Source: Psychrobacter sp.
Lineage (GTDB): Bacteria > Pseudomonadota > Gammaproteobacteria > Pseudomonadales > Moraxellaceae
Length of the DNA stretch: 45,810 nucleotides
NCBI GenBank assembly: GCA_029267175.1
Contig: JARIDJ010000026.1
Span: forward strand, 1 to 45,810
Direction: 5' to 3'
Shown here: piece after piece, positions 26,951 through 35,122 of the stretch
Position numbering within the stretch: the stretch's first letter is position 1
How the letters are laid out: each line of letters begins with the position of its first letter
Position numbers and translations under genes: made by a program
Notes under the pieces: model-generated
What the model was told of the DNA's origin: nothing
Databases searched by the model: none
Seen by the model: only the letters and a program-made list of their open reading frames with translations

Positions 26951-27829
26951 ATGAGTGTATTAATTGATAAAGACACTAAAGTATTAGTGCAAGGGTTCAC
27001 TGGTAAAAACGGTACCTTCCATTCTGAACAAGCTATCGCTTATGGTACCAAAATTGTCGGCGGTGTAACGCCAGGTAAAGGCGGTCAAACGCATTTAGGC
27101 TTGCCAGTATTTGATACGATGAGCGAGGCGATGGCGCAAACTCATGCTGATGCTTCTGTGATTTATGTGCCAGCTCCATTTGTTTTAGACTCCATTGTTG
27201 AAGCGGTAGATGCAGGCGTCAAGCTCATCATCGTTATCACCGAAGGCGTACCAACTATCGATATGCTAAAAGCCAAACGCTATATCGAAGAGGCGGATGG
27301 GGTACGTATGGTTGGCCCTAACTGTCCAGGTGTTATCACTCCAGGCGAGTGCAAAATCGGTATCATGCCAGGTCATATCCATATGCCAGGTAAAGTAGGT
27401 ATCATCTCACGCTCTGGTACGCTAACTTATGAAGCGGTCGCCCAAACCACCAAGCTTGGCTTTGGTCAATCAACTTGTATCGGTATCGGTGGCGATCCTA
27501 TCCCTGGTATGAATCAGATCGATGCGCTTAAACTATTCCAAGACGATCCACAAACCGAAGCTATTGTCTTGATCGGCGAGATCGGTGGTACCGCTGAAGA
27601 AGAAGCAGCTGCTTATATCAAAGATCATGTCACCAAGCCAGTGGTTGGCTATATCGCTGGCGTGACTGCTCCTGCTGGTAAGCGCATGGGTCATGCTGGT
27701 GCTATTATCTCTGGTGGTCAAGGTACTGCTGAAGAGAAATTCAAAGCGTTTGAAGATGCAGGAATCGCTTATACCCGTGATCCTTCTAAGATTGGTGAAA
27801 AGTTAAAAGAAATCACGGGTTGGGAATAA
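26951..27829 (+). CDS. sucD: Succinyl-CoA synthetase alpha subunit
   Basis: Partner of SucC; it binds CoA and carries the phosphohistidine intermediate. The CoA-binding Rossmann segment ([18 protein letters not shown]) opens the protein. Conserved [20 protein letters not shown] and [11 protein letters not shown] segments follow, and the phospho-acceptor is His248 in [17 protein letters not shown]. The length is 292 residues. It is the last gene of the TCA block, followed by a clear intrinsic terminator. Confidence 0.98.
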
Positions 27830-27891
27830 TTTATAGCTAAAAACAACATAAGTTTAGCTTATAGCTACTAAAGTCATATTGATAAAACACT

Positions 27892-27921
27892 AAGACACTC
27901 CTACAATGGAGTGTCTTTTTT
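27892..27921 (+). terminator. Intrinsic terminator after sucD
   Basis: AAGACACTCC (27892-27901) pairs with GGAGTGTCTT (27908-27917) across a 6-base loop and leads into a T-run. It separates the TCA block from galU, which begins only 17 bases after the T-run. Confidence 0.93.
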
Positions 27922-27937
27922 ATTGCCTAAAACTATT

Positions 27938-28813
27938 ATGAAAAAAATAACCCATGCTGTTATCCCCGTAGCCGGTTTTGGTACGCGCATGCTACCGTTA
28001 TCGAAGTCAGTTCCCAAAGAGTTACTGCCTTTAGGGAATCGTCCGGCTATTCATTATGTCGTCGAAGAAGCAATTGCCGCTGGTATCAAGCACATTGTTC
28101 TAGTAGGTCATAGCCAAAAAAGTGCAATTGAGAATTACTTTGATATTAATGCTGAGCTTGATAATCAGCTTCGTCAAAAAGGCAAAGATGAGCTTGCCGA
28201 TAGCCTAAATTGGCTACCTGAAGATGTTAGCGTGTCGATGATACGCCAAGGTAAGGCTTTAGGGTTAGGTCATGCAGTTTTAGCCGCGCGCCCTATCATC
28301 GGTGACAATGACTTTGCAGTATTGCTACCGGATGTGGTATTAGATCCTTTCAAGACTGATTTGCAGCGTGATAACTTAGCTTTTATGATTAATGCATTTG
28401 CTAAGGAGGGTCACTCACAAATATTGGTAGAACAAGTGGCTGATAGTGAGGTGCATAAATACGGTATCGCGAAGCTAAGCAATGATGACGATAGTGGATA
28501 TAAAGAAGACGCTAATGGCAACCAAAGCTTTAGAGTAGCAGGCTTCGTTGAAAAACCTAAGCTCAGTCAAGCGCCTTCACGCTTAGCAGTGGTAGGACGT
28601 TATGTTTTTAGTAACAAAATATTTGCTTATCTAGCCAATACTACCGCCTCAGTCGGTGGCGAGATTCAGTTGACTGATGCTATTGATGCACTTATTAGCG
28701 AATATGGCGTCAATGTGACTAAGATGCGCGGCGCTAGCTATGATGCAGGAGACATGCGCTCTTATATGCAGGCCTTTATTTATTTCGCTCAGCAACAGCT
28801 TACTGATGAGTAA
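27938..28813 (+). CDS. galU: UTP-glucose-1-phosphate uridylyltransferase
   Basis: Makes UDP-glucose for surface polysaccharides. The nucleotidyltransferase signature AVIPVAGFGTRMLPLSKSV, with the following PKELLPL, is at the N-terminus, and the GLGHAVLAARP, LLPDVVLD and AGFVEKP motifs follow. The ATG at 27938 gives 291 residues and the usual MKKITHAVIPVAG beginning; an upstream in-frame GTG at 27911 lies inside the sucD terminator and was rejected. An Asp/Asn-rich insert (about residues 186-203) is longer than in enteric GalU. It opens a sugar-precursor module with pgi, a ugd-like gene and pgm. Confidence 0.97.
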   Translation: MKKITHAVIPVAGFGTRMLPLSKSVPKELLPLGNRPAIHYVVEEAIAAGIKHIVLVGHSQKSAIENYFDINAELDNQLRQKGKDELADSLNWLPEDVSVSMIRQGKALGLGHAVLAARPIIGDNDFAVLLPDVVLDPFKTDLQRDNLAFMINAFAKEGHSQILVEQVADSEVHKYGIAKLSNDDDSGYKEDANGNQSFRVAGFVEKPKLSQAPSRLAVVGRYVFSNKIFAYLANTTASVGGEIQLTDAIDALISEYGVNVTKMRGASYDAGDMRSYMQAFIYFAQQQLTDE

Positions 28814-28828
28814 TCAATTATTTAATTA

Positions 28829-29093
28829 GGGTCTGTTGAACATTCGATCATGGCACTGACAGTGACTATTTTTTAGGCGATTCTAGATTAAAACTATCTA
28901 GTTTAGTCACTCTAAGCGGATCTTTTTAATGACTAATCGGCAAAAAAGAGTCCTGTCCTTATAGGCTGATGCTAAAATTGCTCTATTCGTTGTAAAAATC
29001 TAGCCAATGCAATGAGCATTACCTGCAATTTTTACTTAGACTAGAACCATTTTAGCTATCAGCAGTGCTCATTTATAAATGTTCAACAGACCC
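28829..29093. mobile_element. MITE-like element between galU and pgi
   Basis: A 265-base gene-free segment is bounded by a perfect 16-base terminal inverted repeat: GGGTCTGTTGAACATT at 28829-28844 and its complement at 29078-29093. The symmetry continues imperfectly inward (a CACTG core about 9 bases further in on both sides). There is no transposase frame, consistent with a non-autonomous element mobilised in trans. The bases just outside (A/T, giving AGGGT and ACCCT ends) do not form an obvious target duplication. I cannot name the parent insertion sequence with confidence. Confidence 0.8.
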
Positions 29094-29120
29094 TGATCCG
29101 CCACATAAAAACCCCTGTCG

Positions 29121-30788
29121 ATGAGTCGTATTATGGCAAATAATCCCTATCCTAGTGCTCGCAAATCCTCGTATTGGACGCAGTTACAGCAGCTCGCTGA
29201 GCAGCCGTGGTCGATTGTGCACTTATTCGCTCACGATGATAAGCGCGCTCAGCGCTTCTATGTAGAAGCCAATGCTATTTATATGGATTATAGCAAGCAG
29301 TGTATCGATGAGACGGTATTAACGGGGCTATTGAATTTGGCGCAGAGCTGCGAGTTATCAGCGCGCATTAAAGATTTGATGCAAGGTGCTATGGTCAATA
29401 CTAGCGAGCAACGTGCTGCGCTGCACACCGCTCTTCGTTTGCCTGAGAGTGCCGAGTTAGTCGTCGCTGAGCAAAATGTAGTCAAAGATGTACATCATAG
29501 TCTAACGCAAGTTGAGCGCTTATCGGCCCGTATTCGTAATGGCACTTGGCGCGGGTTTTCAGGAAAAGCCATTACTGATGTGGTCAATATCGGCGTCGGT
29601 GGCTCTGATTTAGGGCCTCTGATGGCAACGGCTGCGCTCGATGAGTGGGCGGATACCGACATCGTAGTGCATTTTGTCTCCAATATGGATGGCACGCAGC
29701 TGGATAATTTGCTCAAGCGCCTCAATGCTGAGACTACGTTATTTATTATCTCCTCTAAGTCTTTTGGTACTGTTGATACTTTATCGAATGCTAAGACGGC
29801 TTTGTCGTGGTTATTAGAAACCGCTGTGCTTAATTCAGGCTCACAAAAAAGTGTCTTGCGTCGACATTTCATCGGTATCTCAGCCAATAGAAGCAAAATG
29901 AGTGCTTGGGGTATCCATCCTGAGCATCAATTGCAGCTTTGGGATTGGGTTGGTGGGCGCTTTTCTTTATGGTCAGCTATCGGTTTGGCTATCGCTATTC
30001 GTATTGGTATGTCACAGTTTCGTGAGCTACTTGCCGGTGCAAATGCTATGGATGAGCATTTTGCTACTGCAGATTTTAAAGAAAATTTACCCGTACTATT
30101 AGGGCTGCTTGCGGTGTGGAATAGCACCTTTTTGCAGATACATGCGCATACGGTATTGCCTTATGATGGACGTTTGGCTTATTTGCCAAGTTATCTAACT
30201 CAGCTTGAGATGGAGAGTAATGGCAAGTCAGTGACTCATGATGGTAGCCATATTGATTACAATACCTGTCCGATACTTTGGGGCGAGATTGGCTCAAACG
30301 CGCAGCACGCTTTTTATCAATTACTGCATCAAGGCACGCAGCATGTTTCTTGTGATTTTATCGCTTGCGTCCGTCATTATGACGATAATGAACAAAACAC
30401 TTCATTACAGCATCAGCATGAGTTATCGCTATCGAACTGCTTAGCACAGAGCCGAGTGTTGGCTTTTGGAAATGCTGCTATCGCCGATGTAAATGCTACG
30501 GCTTGTGAAGCGGATAAATATAAGCATTATCGCGGTAATCAGCCTTCCACCACTTTGCTTATCGATGAGTTGACACCGCATAGTTTGGGTGAACTGATTG
30601 CTTTATATGAGCACAAAGTCTATGTCATGGCAAGCATTTGGGATGTGAATCCTTTTGATCAGTGGGGCGTTGAGATGGGTAAGCAAATGGCAGAAACCGT
30701 TTATCAAGCTATGCAGCAAAATACTTCTGCTCCTTTTGATACTTCTACCAATCAGCTACTAGAGCATATCAAGCAGCTAGCTGAATAA
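29121..30788 (+). CDS. pgi: Glucose-6-phosphate isomerase
   Basis: Interconverts glucose 6-phosphate and fructose 6-phosphate. Family signatures are VVNIGVGGSDLGPLMATAAL, the IISSKSFGTVDTL phosphate loop, GGRFSLWSAIGLAIA, the active-site His in WGEIGSNAQHAFYQLLHQGT and the Lys in YVMASIWDVNPFDQWGVEMGK. The length of 555 residues is typical. An alternative ATG at 29133 removes four residues; neither start has a strong ribosome-binding site. The MITE-like element lies immediately upstream, so it may separate pgi from galU transcription or supply regulatory sequence. Confidence 0.97.
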   Translation: MSRIMANNPYPSARKSSYWTQLQQLAEQPWSIVHLFAHDDKRAQRFYVEANAIYMDYSKQCIDETVLTGLLNLAQSCELSARIKDLMQGAMVNTSEQRAALHTALRLPESAELVVAEQNVVKDVHHSLTQVERLSARIRNGTWRGFSGKAITDVVNIGVGGSDLGPLMATAALDEWADTDIVVHFVSNMDGTQLDNLLKRLNAETTLFIISSKSFGTVDTLSNAKTALSWLLETAVLNSGSQKSVLRRHFIGISANRSKMSAWGIHPEHQLQLWDWVGGRFSLWSAIGLAIAIRIGMSQFRELLAGANAMDEHFATADFKENLPVLLGLLAVWNSTFLQIHAHTVLPYDGRLAYLPSYLTQLEMESNGKSVTHDGSHIDYNTCPILWGEIGSNAQHAFYQLLHQGTQHVSCDFIACVRHYDDNEQNTSLQHQHELSLSNCLAQSRVLAFGNAAIADVNATACEADKYKHYRGNQPSTTLLIDELTPHSLGELIALYEHKVYVMASIWDVNPFDQWGVEMGKQMAETVYQAMQQNTSAPFDTSTNQLLEHIKQLAE

Positions 30789-30824
30789 TACGGTCTTTAA
30801 TAAAACTATAATTAAGGTAGCGCT

Positions 30825-32216
30825 ATGAGCTCTAACGCCGCAGTCAGTACCAGTACGCTTAGCACTAAGTCCTCTAAGGTTTGTATCATTATTGGTCACA
30901 GTATAGAAGCCATCACTAGTAGCGTTGTGCTAGCAAGCTTAGATCATACGGTGCATCTATACGCCGATTTAGCGGTATTAGAACAGCAGGTTGAGCAATA
31001 TGGCTTTGAGCATCACCTGCAGGCTTTATGGCAGATGTATTGTCAGCAGCAGCAAATAATATGCTCAGCGTTACCAGATAGTGCCGATAAGCTAATTAAT
31101 CATTACGAGAGTACAGCTGAATCAAGCCTTTCTCAAACTCAAGATAAAAATCTCAATAAAAATAAGCGTGTCGATATCAGTTGTTATTGGCTATTTTTGG
31201 ATAGTATTAGCAAAGTTTGGGCGGATGATAATTGGATTGTGGCTTTTAATCACAGTCATCAACAAACGATTCCAATAGTCATGAGCGGGATTGAAAAGCT
31301 AGGACGCGTGACAAAATTAGCAGAGGGTTTACAACGCGCTTGGGTTTATTACGTGCCGTTTGTGTTTTTGCAAGACGGTGAAGCTTATAGCTCGATGCTA
31401 AAGCCATCATTGTGGTTATTGGGCGAAAAAACCCCTGATAGCAGTCATCATTTAGCGGTACTACAACCATTAATACAACAGGCTCGTGCTTATCATCATG
31501 CCGATATTGCTACTATCGAGTTTGCGCGTAGTAGTATTATGGCGATGCTGGCCACGCGTGTTAGCTTTATGAATGAGCTATCTAGACTTGCTGATAGTCA
31601 GCAGGTAGATATCGGTGAAGTCAGCCGTATTATGGGACTTGATGCCAGAGTAGGAAGTAGTTATTTGCAGGCGGGTTGGGGGTTTGGCGGTAATACTTTG
31701 CCCACTGAGCTGAATAAATTACAGCAATCTGGGCAAGAAAATAGTGTCAATATGCCTTTACTACAGTCGGTATTGCACATCAATAACGATCAAAAAGAGC
31801 TGATCTTCCGTAAATTTTGGCAGCACTTTGATGGCTTTATCGATAATAAAACGGTAACCATTTGGGGCGGGAGTTATAAATCAGGCTCTGGACGCACCAC
31901 AGGTTCTGCTATTCATCCGCTGTTAGCGTTATTGTGGTCTTATAATATTAAGACACTGGTTTATAGCGATAAAGCCAAAAACTCACTAGCCAAGCACTAT
32001 AGTGAGCAGCCGTTATTACAACTGCTCGATAGTCCTTATGAGCAGCTTGATGACGCGCAAGCACTATTTATCATTAGTTTATCACCGCAGCATCAGTTGG
32101 ATATAGCACAGCTCAACCAGCAAGCTATGCCTATCTTTGATGCGCAAAATGCGTTATCCCGTGCTCAAATTAAGGCGTTAGTCGGAAGTTATGTAGGGAT
32201 TGGCCGCGCTAAATAG
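30825..32216 (+). CDS. UDP-glucose/GDP-mannose dehydrogenase-family protein, probably catalytically inactive
   Basis: The 463-residue protein follows the fold order of UDP-glucose 6-dehydrogenase: an N-terminal Rossmann-like segment (VCIIIGHSIEAITSSV), a central helix and dimerisation segment (LATRVSFMNELSRLAD, GEVSRIMGLDARVGSSYLQA) and a C-terminal UDP-binding Rossmann part starting near VTIWGGSYKSGSGRTTGS. The catalytic features look lost. The cysteine of the usual GGxCxPKD motif is Thr291 in GFGGNTLPTE, the catalytic Lys position reads Arg235 and the Asn position Met239, and the first Rossmann motif lacks GxGxxG. A Ser/Asn-rich insert lies near residues 95-116. It sits between pgi and pgm, where Acinetobacter loci hold an active ugd in the same module. 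Confidence 0.8.
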   Translation: MSSNAAVSTSTLSTKSSKVCIIIGHSIEAITSSVVLASLDHTVHLYADLAVLEQQVEQYGFEHHLQALWQMYCQQQQIICSALPDSADKLINHYESTAESSLSQTQDKNLNKNKRVDISCYWLFLDSISKVWADDNWIVAFNHSHQQTIPIVMSGIEKLGRVTKLAEGLQRAWVYYVPFVFLQDGEAYSSMLKPSLWLLGEKTPDSSHHLAVLQPLIQQARAYHHADIATIEFARSSIMAMLATRVSFMNELSRLADSQQVDIGEVSRIMGLDARVGSSYLQAGWGFGGNTLPTELNKLQQSGQENSVNMPLLQSVLHINNDQKELIFRKFWQHFDGFIDNKTVTIWGGSYKSGSGRTTGSAIHPLLALLWSYNIKTLVYSDKAKNSLAKHYSEQPLLQLLDSPYEQLDDAQALFIISLSPQHQLDIAQLNQQAMPIFDAQNALSRAQIKALVGSYVGIGRAK

Positions 32217-32249
32217 TCGTTAGAGTGACAAGCATAATACCTTCTAAGC

Positions 32250-33731
32250 TTAAGCAGGAACCGCGCCTTGAGTCGCAAGCCAGTCTTTAATTTCTATGGT
32301 TTTACTCTGCAATAACTGTTTATCTCCGCGACTCTCAATATTGAGTCGAATTAGGGGTTCAGTATTAGAAGCGCGCAGATTAAATCGCCACTCGCCAAAA
32401 TCGAGACTGAGACCATCAAGCATAGATTTGCTCGGTTGTTCGTCAGCGAATTTACTTTCTATATCATTAATGATAGTCGTTGCATCACTACTAGTTAAAC
32501 GAAAATTGAGCTCACCTGAGCTCGGATAAGCGCTGATATAACCATTAACTAGCTCTGATAAGCGGTTGCCAGTAATGGATACTAATTCAATGGTCAAAAG
32601 CCACGGAATCATGCCGCTATCACAATAAAAGAAATCGCGGAAATAATGATGCGCTGACATCTCGCCACCATAAACCGCGCCTGATTCGCGCATCACTTGC
32701 TTGATAAAAGAGTGTCCTGACTTACTAATAACCGCTTTGCCACCATGCTCATCGATGACCGCTTCGGTGTTATAGATGACACGAGGATCGTAGACAATGG
32801 ATTCGCTTGGATACTTATTAAGAAACGCTTGCGCGAGCATACCGACAATATAACTGCCATCAACAAACTCGCCCGTTTCATCAAATAAAAAACAGCGATC
32901 AAAATCACCATCAAAGGCAATACCTAAATCAGCTTGATTATCTAGCACCGCTTGCCGCGTTGACGCCCGGTTTGCTAAAATCATTGGATTAGGAATACCG
33001 TTAGGAAAGCTACCATCAGGGTCATGATGCAGACGAATGACTTCAATGGGCGCGTTAGCTTGTACTAGTTTATCGATTAGTAAATCAACCACGGGACCGG
33101 CGCTACCATTACCAGAATTAATGACAATAGTTAAAGGTTTGAGCTTTTTTATATCAATAAAATCGATAATATGGTTGATGTAAGCGCTCTTATCAGCTAA
33201 TGATCGTAGCTCGCCTTTTTGCTCAGCATCAGCGAAGTCTCCTGACTCAGCTAATGCTCGAATCTCAGCCAAACCGTCATCTGCGCTTATCGGCTTTGAG
33301 TGCTCTTTGACCAGCTTTAAGCCGTTATAATTGATTGGGTTATGACTAGCAGTGACCTCAATGCCGCCTAATACTTGATAGTGGCTAGTGGCAAAATATA
33401 CCTCTTCGGTGCCAGTCATGCCCAAATCAATAACATTAACGCCAGCATCTAAAATACCTGCCATCGCCGCTTGTTTGAGCTGCTCGCTTGAATGACGAAT
33501 GTCGCAACCAATGGCAATAGCCGATTTTAGTTTTTTCAAATCGCTAGAGTCAGCGGCGGCGTGGTATCTTTTATAAAGAATCTCAGCAAAGGCGCGACCA
33601 ATTCGGTAAGCTATCGCTTCATCTAAATTAACCCCAAGCTCACCGCGAATATCGTAGGCTTTAAAGGAGTTTATAGTGATAGGGCTGAACGAATCGGCAG
33701 GCTGATAGCTGGTATTATTCACAATAGACAT
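32250..33731 (-). CDS. pgm: Phosphomannomutase/phosphoglucomutase
   Basis: Alpha-D-phosphohexomutase that supplies glucose 1-phosphate or mannose 1-phosphate. Domain order is visible: the N-terminal KAYDIRGELG, the active-site phosphoserine Ser129 in VTASHNPINYNG, the metal loop AFDGDFDRCFLFDE, the sugar-specificity loop GGEMSAHHYF and the C-terminal phosphate-binding LRASNTEPLIRLNIES. GEMSAHHYF resembles AlgC-type dual-specificity enzymes rather than strict phosphoglucomutases. The ATG at 33731 (493 residues) is chosen over an upstream one at 33788 because it matches the family's start. The gene is convergent with the galU-pgi-ugd-like group, an arrangement also seen at the end of Acinetobacter capsule loci. 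Confidence 0.95.
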   Translation of the reverse strand: MSIVNNTSYQPADSFSPITINSFKAYDIRGELGVNLDEAIAYRIGRAFAEILYKRYHAAADSSDLKKLKSAIAIGCDIRHSSEQLKQAAMAGILDAGVNVIDLGMTGTEEVYFATSHYQVLGGIEVTASHNPINYNGLKLVKEHSKPISADDGLAEIRALAESGDFADAEQKGELRSLADKSAYINHIIDFIDIKKLKPLTIVINSGNGSAGPVVDLLIDKLVQANAPIEVIRLHHDPDGSFPNGIPNPMILANRASTRQAVLDNQADLGIAFDGDFDRCFLFDETGEFVDGSYIVGMLAQAFLNKYPSESIVYDPRVIYNTEAVIDEHGGKAVISKSGHSFIKQVMRESGAVYGGEMSAHHYFRDFFYCDSGMIPWLLTIELVSITGNRLSELVNGYISAYPSSGELNFRLTSSDATTIINDIESKFADEQPSKSMLDGLSLDFGEWRFNLRASNTEPLIRLNIESRGDKQLLQSKTIEIKDWLATQGAVPA

Positions 33732-33858
33732 AAAATAGATATTCCTAAGCTTAAAGGTAGAGAGCATTATTATTAAATAACTATTCAATGATACACTAAC
33801 TCATAAACGGCTATCAGCTATTAGCGCTAAATGAGCAAAAATAAGAGTAACTATTTTT

Positions 33859-34743
33859 ATGACTACCGACGATAATAATTTACAAGATCGAACCCAAGTT
33901 TTGCCACCTGAGCCGGTATCAGGTACACCTAAAGCCACTGGCGAATTAAGCGATTTATTAGCACTAATGGCGCGCCTGCGGGCGGACTGTCCTTGGGATC
34001 AAAAGCAGAGCAATCATAGCTTAATTCCTTATGCTATCGAAGAAGCTTATGAGTTAGCGGAAGCGGTACAGACGGATGATGAGGAGGATATCAAAGGCGA
34101 GCTTGGCGATGTATTATTGCAAGTGATTTTTCATTGTCAGCTCTACGCTGAGCAAGGGCGTTTTGATCTGAGCGATGTGATAACTACGTTGCAACAAAAG
34201 CTGATTCGTCGCCATCCGCATGTATTCGAAACTGAACATCTCAAAGATGAGGCGTCGGTAAAAGCGCGCTGGGATGAGATAAAGGCTGAGGAGCGTCAAG
34301 CCGATGAGGCTCGCGGCAAACCGCGTCGTCGCTTGGACGCATGCAGGGCCGGTAGCGCGCTGATGCAAGCGCAGTCGGTACAAAAGCAAGCCTCAAAATT
34401 AGGTTTTGATTGGCAAGGCGTAGCAGGCGCTTTTGAGAAGTTAGAAGAGGAGATTGAGGAGTTAAAAACTGAGATTGTCGATAAATCAAAAGCTGAGATA
34501 AAGGCTAATATCAGCGATATTGAAAAGGAGCTTGGCGATTGCTTATTTGCTTTAGTTAATGTCGCGCGTAAGCTCAATCTTGATGCCGAAACAGTAGCGC
34601 TAACTTGTGTACACAAATTTAAATCGCGTTTTGCTTATATTGAAGATCAACTGCAAGCTATTGGCAAGCCATTAGAGGATAGTGATATTGCCCAAATGGA
34701 CGCATTGTGGGAGGCCGCCAAACTGCATGAGCGCTCCTTATAA
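33859..34743 (+). CDS. mazG: MazG, nucleoside triphosphate pyrophosphohydrolase
   Basis: House-cleaning enzyme hydrolysing NTPs to NMP and pyrophosphate. Two MazG-type domains are arranged in tandem. The first contains LRADCPWDQKQSNHSL and the metal-binding EEAYELAEAV followed by KGELGDVLLQVIFHC; the second contains EKLEEEIEELK and EKELGDCLFALVNVARKL. The 294-residue length is slightly above the E. coli enzyme (263), with a longer N-terminal part of about 25 residues. The end of the gene overlaps the comEA-like start by 17 bases, so the two are probably translationally linked. Confidence 0.96.
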   Translation: MTTDDNNLQDRTQVLPPEPVSGTPKATGELSDLLALMARLRADCPWDQKQSNHSLIPYAIEEAYELAEAVQTDDEEDIKGELGDVLLQVIFHCQLYAEQGRFDLSDVITTLQQKLIRRHPHVFETEHLKDEASVKARWDEIKAEERQADEARGKPRRRLDACRAGSALMQAQSVQKQASKLGFDWQGVAGAFEKLEEEIEELKTEIVDKSKAEIKANISDIEKELGDCLFALVNVARKLNLDAETVALTCVHKFKSRFAYIEDQLQAIGKPLEDSDIAQMDALWEAAKLHERSL

Positions 34744-35122
34744 CTTTATTAATCATTATCGTGGGTTACTTGCTAAGAAACACTTAGGGCTTTTATCATG
34801 CCTAATTGTTTTTATATCCGTTATAGCGTCCAGCGCGCAAGCTGCGCCTTGTTTTGATAATCCAAAAAGTGCTTATAAATACCTATTAGCACAAGAAAAA
34901 TCCGAGACCCAAGCGCGCGTGCAGGCCACGGTAAATATCAATCGCGCCACTGAGGGCGAGCTGGTATCACTAAATGGCATTGGCAGTAGTAAAGCGCAAG
35001 AGATTATTCTTTACCGTGAAATGTTTGGCGACTTTAAAAGTGTTGATGAATTAGTAAAAGTAAAGGGTATCGGCGCAAAAACTATTGAGAAAAATAGAGC
35101 AAGAATGCGAGTAGGGAATTGA
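34727..35122 (+). CDS. comEA: ComEA-like helix-hairpin-helix DNA-binding protein
   Basis: A 131-residue exported protein. A signal peptide (hydrophobic core LGLLSCLIVFISVIAS, cleavage likely after SSAQA) is followed by a short linker and a double helix-hairpin-helix domain with VNINRATEGELVSLNGIGSS and VKVKGIGAKTIEKNRARM, the pattern of ComEA, the periplasmic double-stranded-DNA receptor of natural transformation. The ATG at 34727 gives a normal signal peptide; an earlier in-frame ATG at 34682, inside mazG, would put 15 extra residues in front. A competence role is inferred from the family. No other competence genes are in the window. Confidence 0.9.
   Translation: MSAPYNFINHYRGLLAKKHLGLLSCLIVFISVIASSAQAAPCFDNPKSAYKYLLAQEKSETQARVQATVNINRATEGELVSLNGIGSSKAQEIILYREMFGDFKSVDELVKVKGIGAKTIEKNRARMRVGN

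Follow-up and report, generated by a model that had tools for sequence, protein, structure and literature searches.

Contig JARIDJ010000026.1 of Psychrobacter sp. (45,810 nucleotides; hereafter the window) carries an open reading frame at positions 30825–32216 of the forward strand that starts with ATG, contains no internal stop and encodes 463 amino acids, in agreement with the long intact frame of the initial annotation; its reverse strand has stops throughout. We refer to this gene, its protein and their relatives in the same clade as X. Upstream on the same strand and 36 bases away lies pgi (29121–30788), encoding glucose-6-phosphate isomerase, preceded by galU (27911–28813, forward strand), encoding UTP-glucose-1-phosphate uridylyltransferase, whose start codon is uncertain (domain match at 27947–28774). 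A phosphohexomutase gene, pgm, is convergent with X on the reverse strand (32250–33788; start codon uncertain). The complete order is sucC-sucD-galU-pgi-X-(pgm, opposite strand)-mazG, with sucC, sucD, pgm and mazG named by likeness and without a family search. In the following, L, G, g and f before a number denote a locus, genome, genus and family, respectively.

By its sequence, X is a member of the UDP-glucose/GDP-mannose dehydrogenase family. The sole Pfam family over its cut-off was PF00984, the central domain of UDP-glucose 6-dehydrogenases (UGDs; 77 bits, cut-off 25.4). The C-terminal domain PF03720 scored 23.4 bits, below its cut-off of 30, and the same search gave no match to the NAD-binding domain PF03721 and no GalU homology of the kind that marks a GalF-like paralogue. 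Against TIGR03026, X scored 124.5 bits (cut-off 189.8). Its closest solved relative is 3gg2 from Porphyromonas gingivalis (E = 4.6e-29), and its fold is that of a complete three-domain UGD, so the architecture noted initially is retained. TuaD-type UGDs (3gg2; BceC, 2y0c-e) are its nearest neighbours in the tree and have this fold, the DxRIG arginine, the lysine of the C-terminal domain and the aspartate and asparagine of DGRN in common with X. In contrast to these enzymes, X has no catalytic cysteine, has a broken NAD motif and adjoins galU/pgi, and in the window's branch of the clade the catalytic lysine and asparagine are gone as well.

Landmark residues were read from an alignment with eight canonical TuaD-type UGDs, using the numbering of the Streptococcus enzyme (Cys260, Lys204, Asn208, Glu141, Thr118, Glu145, Asp264) and its match to human numbering. 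T291 (31695–31697, forward strand, as are all codons below) replaces Cys260, and the codons from R235 to M239 (31527–31541) replace Lys204 and Asn208, also when aligned with 3gg2. Glu141 has become V180 and Thr118 I156. The alignment thereby bears out all four exchanges proposed initially (Cys, Lys, Asn and Glu), and no Cys, Lys or intact GxGxxG came into register when looked for. Two broader statements of the initial annotation stood only in part. The GxGxxG motif (30894–30911) is broken by S26 and A29 at its second and third glycine and retains its first, G24. As for a loss of every catalytic landmark, Glu145 and the aspartate of PKD changed conservatively (D184 and E295), and R275, K352, D439 and N442 are kept. 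The arginine of DGRN is Q441 in X. K352 (31878–31880) presumably corresponds to Lys320/Lys339 of canonical UGDs. Among 121 representatives of the clade described below, the catalytic cysteine of GGxCxPKD was found in none, while all 121 keep the DxRIG arginine, a basic residue at the C-domain lysine, and the aspartate and asparagine of DGRN. A tryptophan in FRKxW (F328, R329, K330 and W332 in X; W332 at 31818–31820) marks the clade, being present in 121/121 X and 0/8 canonical sequences. The DxRxG arginine, R275 (31647–31649), corresponds to the one that contacts the UDP-sugar in UGDs; it aligns with Arg260 of human UDP-glucose dehydrogenase (UGDH), which reaches the sugar site of the neighbouring subunit, according to the consulted portion of a study that also describes the roles of Cys276, Asp280, Lys220 and Asn224 (PMC3184952).

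The cysteine-less sequences form one clade. In a tree of 148 representatives, all 121 of them, the X of the window included, fell on one side of a single branch (length 1.13; Shimodaira–Hasegawa-like approximate likelihood ratio test, 100). A careful tree of 61 rows gave this split a support of 100/100 and recovered it in 100% of 200 bootstrap trees. L001–L003 (first fetches), L080 (which repeats the genome of L017), L024 and frames shorter than 370 amino acids were left out before tree building. Acinetobacter and g4 cluster with Alcanivorax, and Psychrobacter, g6, g8 and g14 with g3, g15 and g16 (g6 was placed in the larger tree only). A long branch leads to Psychrobacter, g6, g8 and g14 (2.29 in the larger tree, 2.13 in the smaller).

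Across the whole clade, the cysteine and most NAD contacts are gone, and the former Cys column holds N, S, T, G, H or A. The remaining residues divide along the long branch (group tallies rest on the four commonest letters per group). Outside it, representatives keep Lys (76/78), Glu145 (69/78), Asp264 (61/78) and the DGRN arginine (78/78); inside it, Arg replaces Lys and Glu stands at the Asp column in 43/43, and the DGRN arginine is mostly Lys or Gln. The losses look ordered, with the cysteine and most NAD contacts lost clade-wide and Lys and the DGRN arginine later in one branch, and Psychrobacter with its nearest genera shows a second round. Residues kept outside this branch would suit an enzyme with a changed, non-oxidising chemistry on a UDP-sugar; we consider such an enzyme rather unlikely, given the uniform Arg and Glu in the window's branch and the variability of the former Cys column.

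Within Psychrobacter, the substitutions are conserved as predicted, with T, R, M, V and E at the Cys, Lys, Asn, Glu141 and Asp columns in 24/24 representatives. A cysteine loss restricted to this genus was ruled out by the cysteine-less X of the same clade in other genera and families, namely Acinetobacter, Alcanivorax, Halopseudomonas and further families of the Pseudomonadales. The initial picture was thus too narrow, and the loss would predate Psychrobacter. Among loci from a species collection, 68/69 carry a cysteine-less X, the exception being a canonical gene in L201 (Lysobacterales); the 68 include A. nosocomialis, A. pittii, A. seifertii, A. calcoaceticus, A. baylyi, Alcanivorax, Alloalcanivorax, Halopseudomonas yangmingensis and three Alcaligenaceae records. 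Searching 293 genomes from across the order with the family alignment revealed X-type genes in families f36, f37, f26 and f43, that of f43 clustering with Alcanivorax. From this search, 46 of the 50 loci read hold a cysteine-less X; the other four, picked at 402 bits and less, directly under the score gap, are canonical. In a set of Acinetobacter loci outside the species collection, 50/50 have the motif GGENFS[HQR]D, a retained Lys and Ser in place of Asn, and the cysteine is absent from 120/120 relatives of one Acinetobacter X among the matches listed (GG[ED]NFS[HY]D). X is present in 105/105 Psychrobacter genomes and split into two frames in two of them (G051 and G076; assemblies 85–86% complete). 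Elsewhere in the Moraxellaceae, the same kind of gene occupies the slot as galU-pgi-X in g8 and g14 and as galU-X-pgi in Acinetobacter.

Two oddities concern this distribution. Three loci from another order (L153, L154 and L166; Advenella and an Alcaligenaceae metagenome-assembled genome) hold an Acinetobacter-type X adjoining pgi, in L153 and L166 also galU, which we ascribe to horizontal transfer or contamination. The record L171, titled Acinetobacter baumannii ACIN00150, has an X with only 65% identity to that of A. nosocomialis and with a start resembling that of A. guillouiae (L164); the record may be misnamed.

X is under purifying selection. The ratio of nonsynonymous to synonymous divergence (dN/dS) was 0.05–0.14 in the 14 of 19 pairs for which it could be calculated (the remainder comprised an identical pair and four pairs in which dS was saturated). 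Values are rough for the six pairs with dS above 1; the eight with dS below 1 gave 0.06–0.14. Because the substitution pattern is common to all Psychrobacter representatives and dN/dS is this low, the pattern is not due to chance. A decaying pseudogene could account for the missing active site and the two split Psychrobacter copies; dN/dS far below 1, where a value near 1 had been named as refuting retained function, rules it out for practical purposes, and X occurs in every Psychrobacter genome, with the split copies in incomplete assemblies. The fold, the missing residues and dN/dS thus uphold the initial proposal of a pseudoenzyme under retained selection in a galU-pgi-pgm module. In the pair L034/L035, synonymous divergence was 0.07 for X, 0.46 for pgm and 0.24 for pgi, a difference that may point to recombination across the locus.

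X is tightly linked to galU and pgi. One or both lay within 600 bases on the same strand of 239/242 X frames, arranged as galU-X-pgi (134), pgi-X (91), galU-X (13) or with pgi after X and a short flank (1); two of the three frames with neither gene have short flanks. The 29 canonical UGD frames differ, with two beside galU, 23 beside neither gene and four beside neither with short flanks. WecC-type frames, L024 and frames below 370 amino acids were left out of this count, and some genomes enter it twice. Co-occurrence was assessed in 348 genomes, 333 from nine Moraxellaceae genera with X and 15 from seven without, with X called by match strength and part of the copies read. In the nine genera, X and Pgi were both present in 318 genomes and both absent in 13, with one genome having X alone and one, G342 (59% complete), Pgi alone. 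Among genomes lacking both, the assembly of G233 reaches 65% completeness, and in G347 a fragment resembling X stands at the start of a contig; five Acinetobacter genomes without X, 98–100% complete, lack GalU along with Pgi. In view of the linkage, the joint absence indicates that X is not shed alone while pgi stays; it is no proof of contact between the two proteins. In the window itself, promoter and terminator scans of 27700–34000 found about as many hits as chance would give (16 against a mean of 14.2, and 8 against 5.1), and a comEA-like frame (34682–35122) overlaps mazG at the latter's end; the GTG start of this frame probably lies too far upstream.

A canonical UGD does not appear to be the partner of X. 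In 14 of the 105 Psychrobacter genomes, X is present and no scored protein reaches the PF03721 cut-off, scoring having covered 28 first-look candidates in most genomes. At least 12 of these 14 have a completeness of 99% or above, so X needs no such partner in Psychrobacter. These genomes rule out, as a general role, an inactive paralogue that regulates canonical UGD in a hetero-oligomeric hexamer. We regard this role as very unlikely despite the conserved UGD fold and the presence of both kinds of gene at some loci (L018, L139, L195, L237 and L246). The initially suggested partnership with sugar-nucleotide enzymes consequently shifts away from another UGD, and it is GalU and Pgi that constantly adjoin X. 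The search for a second, canonical ugd, also proposed initially, gave no PF03721 match over the cut-off in the window's own assembly (77.5% complete) and one in a genome of the same species. Thirteen divergent Psychrobacter loci (L017–L023, L025, L026 and L029–L032) carry a canonical short-type ugd (GGYCLPKD) beyond pgm from X and would thus hold one dead and one apparently live UGD.

The clade probably extends to the common ugd of the Acinetobacter baumannii capsule (K) locus. Among the best 120 of 2,586 relatives of the A. nosocomialis X, which sits in galU-X-pgi (L134), GGENFSHD was found in 120/120, including 43/43 rows named A. baumannii with 95–100% identity; these near-identical A. baumannii proteins carry the annotation of a working enzyme. 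This sample leaves out a rarer ugd group mentioned in PMC9676051, the papers on capsule loci being cited here from the portions consulted. That identity to the L134 protein, combined with the published gene order galU-ugd-gpi-pgm (PMC9676051), leads us to infer that the cysteine-less proteins are the K-locus Ugd, which we take as a clade member. Unlike the X of the window, it still has Lys, Glu145, Asp and the DGRN arginine, and its order is galU-X-pgi rather than galU-pgi-X.

Published tables assign the common ugd the product UDP-glucuronic acid (UDP-GlcA; PMC9676051, PMC3628348, PMC7200062), and galU, ugd, gpi and pgm occur in every one of the 237 K loci of one set (PMC9676051). Another study takes galU, ugd, pgi and pgm to be needed for components of every structure and notes ugd at two loci inside the gene clusters (PMC3726653). 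In one locus that carries the common ugd, GlcA is given only as a possible sugar (PMC12111749). D-GlcA is listed against ugd2–ugd5 with the number 24, which we read as loci (PMC9676051). KL71, with 21/22 genes in common with KL74, has ugd4 for UDP-GlcA beside its galU-pgm module, and K55, K85, K86, K144 and K239 have the sugars and the ugd4-rmlBDAC module of KL71 in common (PMC11619341). Ugd2–Ugd5, compared with X by description only, are named as UDP-glucose dehydrogenases; loci carry them on top of the common ugd, and they accompany capsule glucuronic acid (PMC9676051, PMC11619341). In L139 (Acinetobacter pittii ANC 4050) and L122, a canonical short-type ugd (GGYCLPKD in L139) lies directly upstream of galU-X-pgi, a placement as expected for an added capsule ugd. 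In phage-resistant A. baumannii, an insertion sequence element was found at position 1,137 of ugd and others in gpi and pgm (PMC10904470), which is compatible with a capsule role of X or with polarity on gpi.

These loci bear on whether X might still be a working UDP-glucose dehydrogenase that employs another residue. Its intact fold and the names given in the sources, mostly of that kind, would fit; the cysteine, the asparagine (in most lineages) and the NAD contacts are lost together, human UGDH with C276A fails to complete the reaction from UDP-glucose and D280N is detrimental (PMC3184952), and capsule loci with glucuronic acid carry an extra ugd (PMC9676051, PMC11619341). On balance, we deem this highly improbable from the sequences at hand. 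The portions of the literature covered by our search contained no publication that calls the common A. baumannii Ugd inactive or describes a UGD pseudoenzyme.

Taken together, X is probably a pseudo-dehydrogenase of TuaD-type origin, retained as a non-oxidising protein and linked to galU/pgi. The fold is kept, the cysteine is missing clade-wide, and UDP-sugar contacts are mostly kept where NAD contacts are mostly lost; X is under purifying selection, has a fixed galU/pgi linkage, is absent almost only together with Pgi and does not need a canonical UGD. Somewhat short of even odds, X may act as a partner of the Pgi-GalU pathway that responds to a UDP-sugar. In the scenario we propose, one ancestral UGD line would have become linked to galU and/or pgi, lost the catalytic cysteine and the grip on NAD, and been retained in several families of the Pseudomonadales, which would have received it by descent, by transfer from other lineages or in both ways. 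The ligand of X would be UDP-glucose, which GalU makes, or a related UDP-sugar, bound at the interface of the UGD dimer, and the loop that senses the sugar in UGDs would alter the contact of X with Pgi and/or GalU, so that the flow of glucose-6-phosphate into UDP-glucose is matched to demand. The changes of Lys to Arg and of the DGRN arginine to Gln or Lys in Psychrobacter and the genera nearest to it suggest that a ligand or partner contact was retuned. A functional parallel, at most, is GalF of Escherichia coli, a paralogue of doubtful catalytic power associated with UDP-glucose supply, according to the portion of the source consulted (PMC4643126); GalF is a GalU homologue, whereas X is a UGD homologue.

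Several observations weigh against this proposal. The DGRN arginine is Gln in 22/24 Psychrobacter representatives, so UDP binding could be gone there. X might then be a scaffold that holds Pgi, GalU or polysaccharide enzymes together, with sugar-nucleotide binding lost at least in Psychrobacter; the galU/pgi linkage and joint absence would fit, and the new FRKxW tryptophan could mark a new interface. We think a scaffold unlikely, since R275, K352, D439 and N442 are fixed and not obviously needed by one. Representatives of the Acinetobacter group keep Lys and Asp (41/41) and Glu145 (40/41), making another chemistry possible for some X. Constraint on X is real yet looser than on pgi, the dN/dS of X exceeding that of pgi in 10/14 pairs. 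Moraxellaceae X fall in two places and the tree does not follow families; its history is therefore not one of simple descent, and may involve exchange between lineages, unless a long branch is misplaced. X occurs without Pgi in G166, and joint absence may reflect a single deletion of the linked locus. Pgi needs no X in general, since g5, g9, g10, g12 and g13 have Pgi without X, with a canonical UGD instead in g10, g12 and g13. G300 (L300, L286) holds a broken pgi remnant directly followed by one of the C-terminal end of X, and has an intact pgi at another site; we interpret the remnants as a decayed copy of the locus.

We assign a probability of about 0.38 to the full reading, in which an unrecognised UDP-sugar-sensing regulator derived from a dead UGD couples Pgi, GalU and surface-polysaccharide supply in several Pseudomonadales families and includes the A. 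baumannii capsule-locus Ugd, which would not make UDP-GlcA. X would then represent a pseudoenzyme that several families have retained and whose losses can be read in order, and it would offer a direct test of dead sugar-nucleotide enzymes as sensors of UDP-glucose supply. If the reading is true, the gene that stands in the consulted A. baumannii capsule-locus tables as the UDP-GlcA source (PMC9676051, PMC3628348, PMC7200062) encodes a non-enzyme, which would explain the extra ugd in glucuronic-acid capsule loci and would change capsule-type prediction and pathway annotation.
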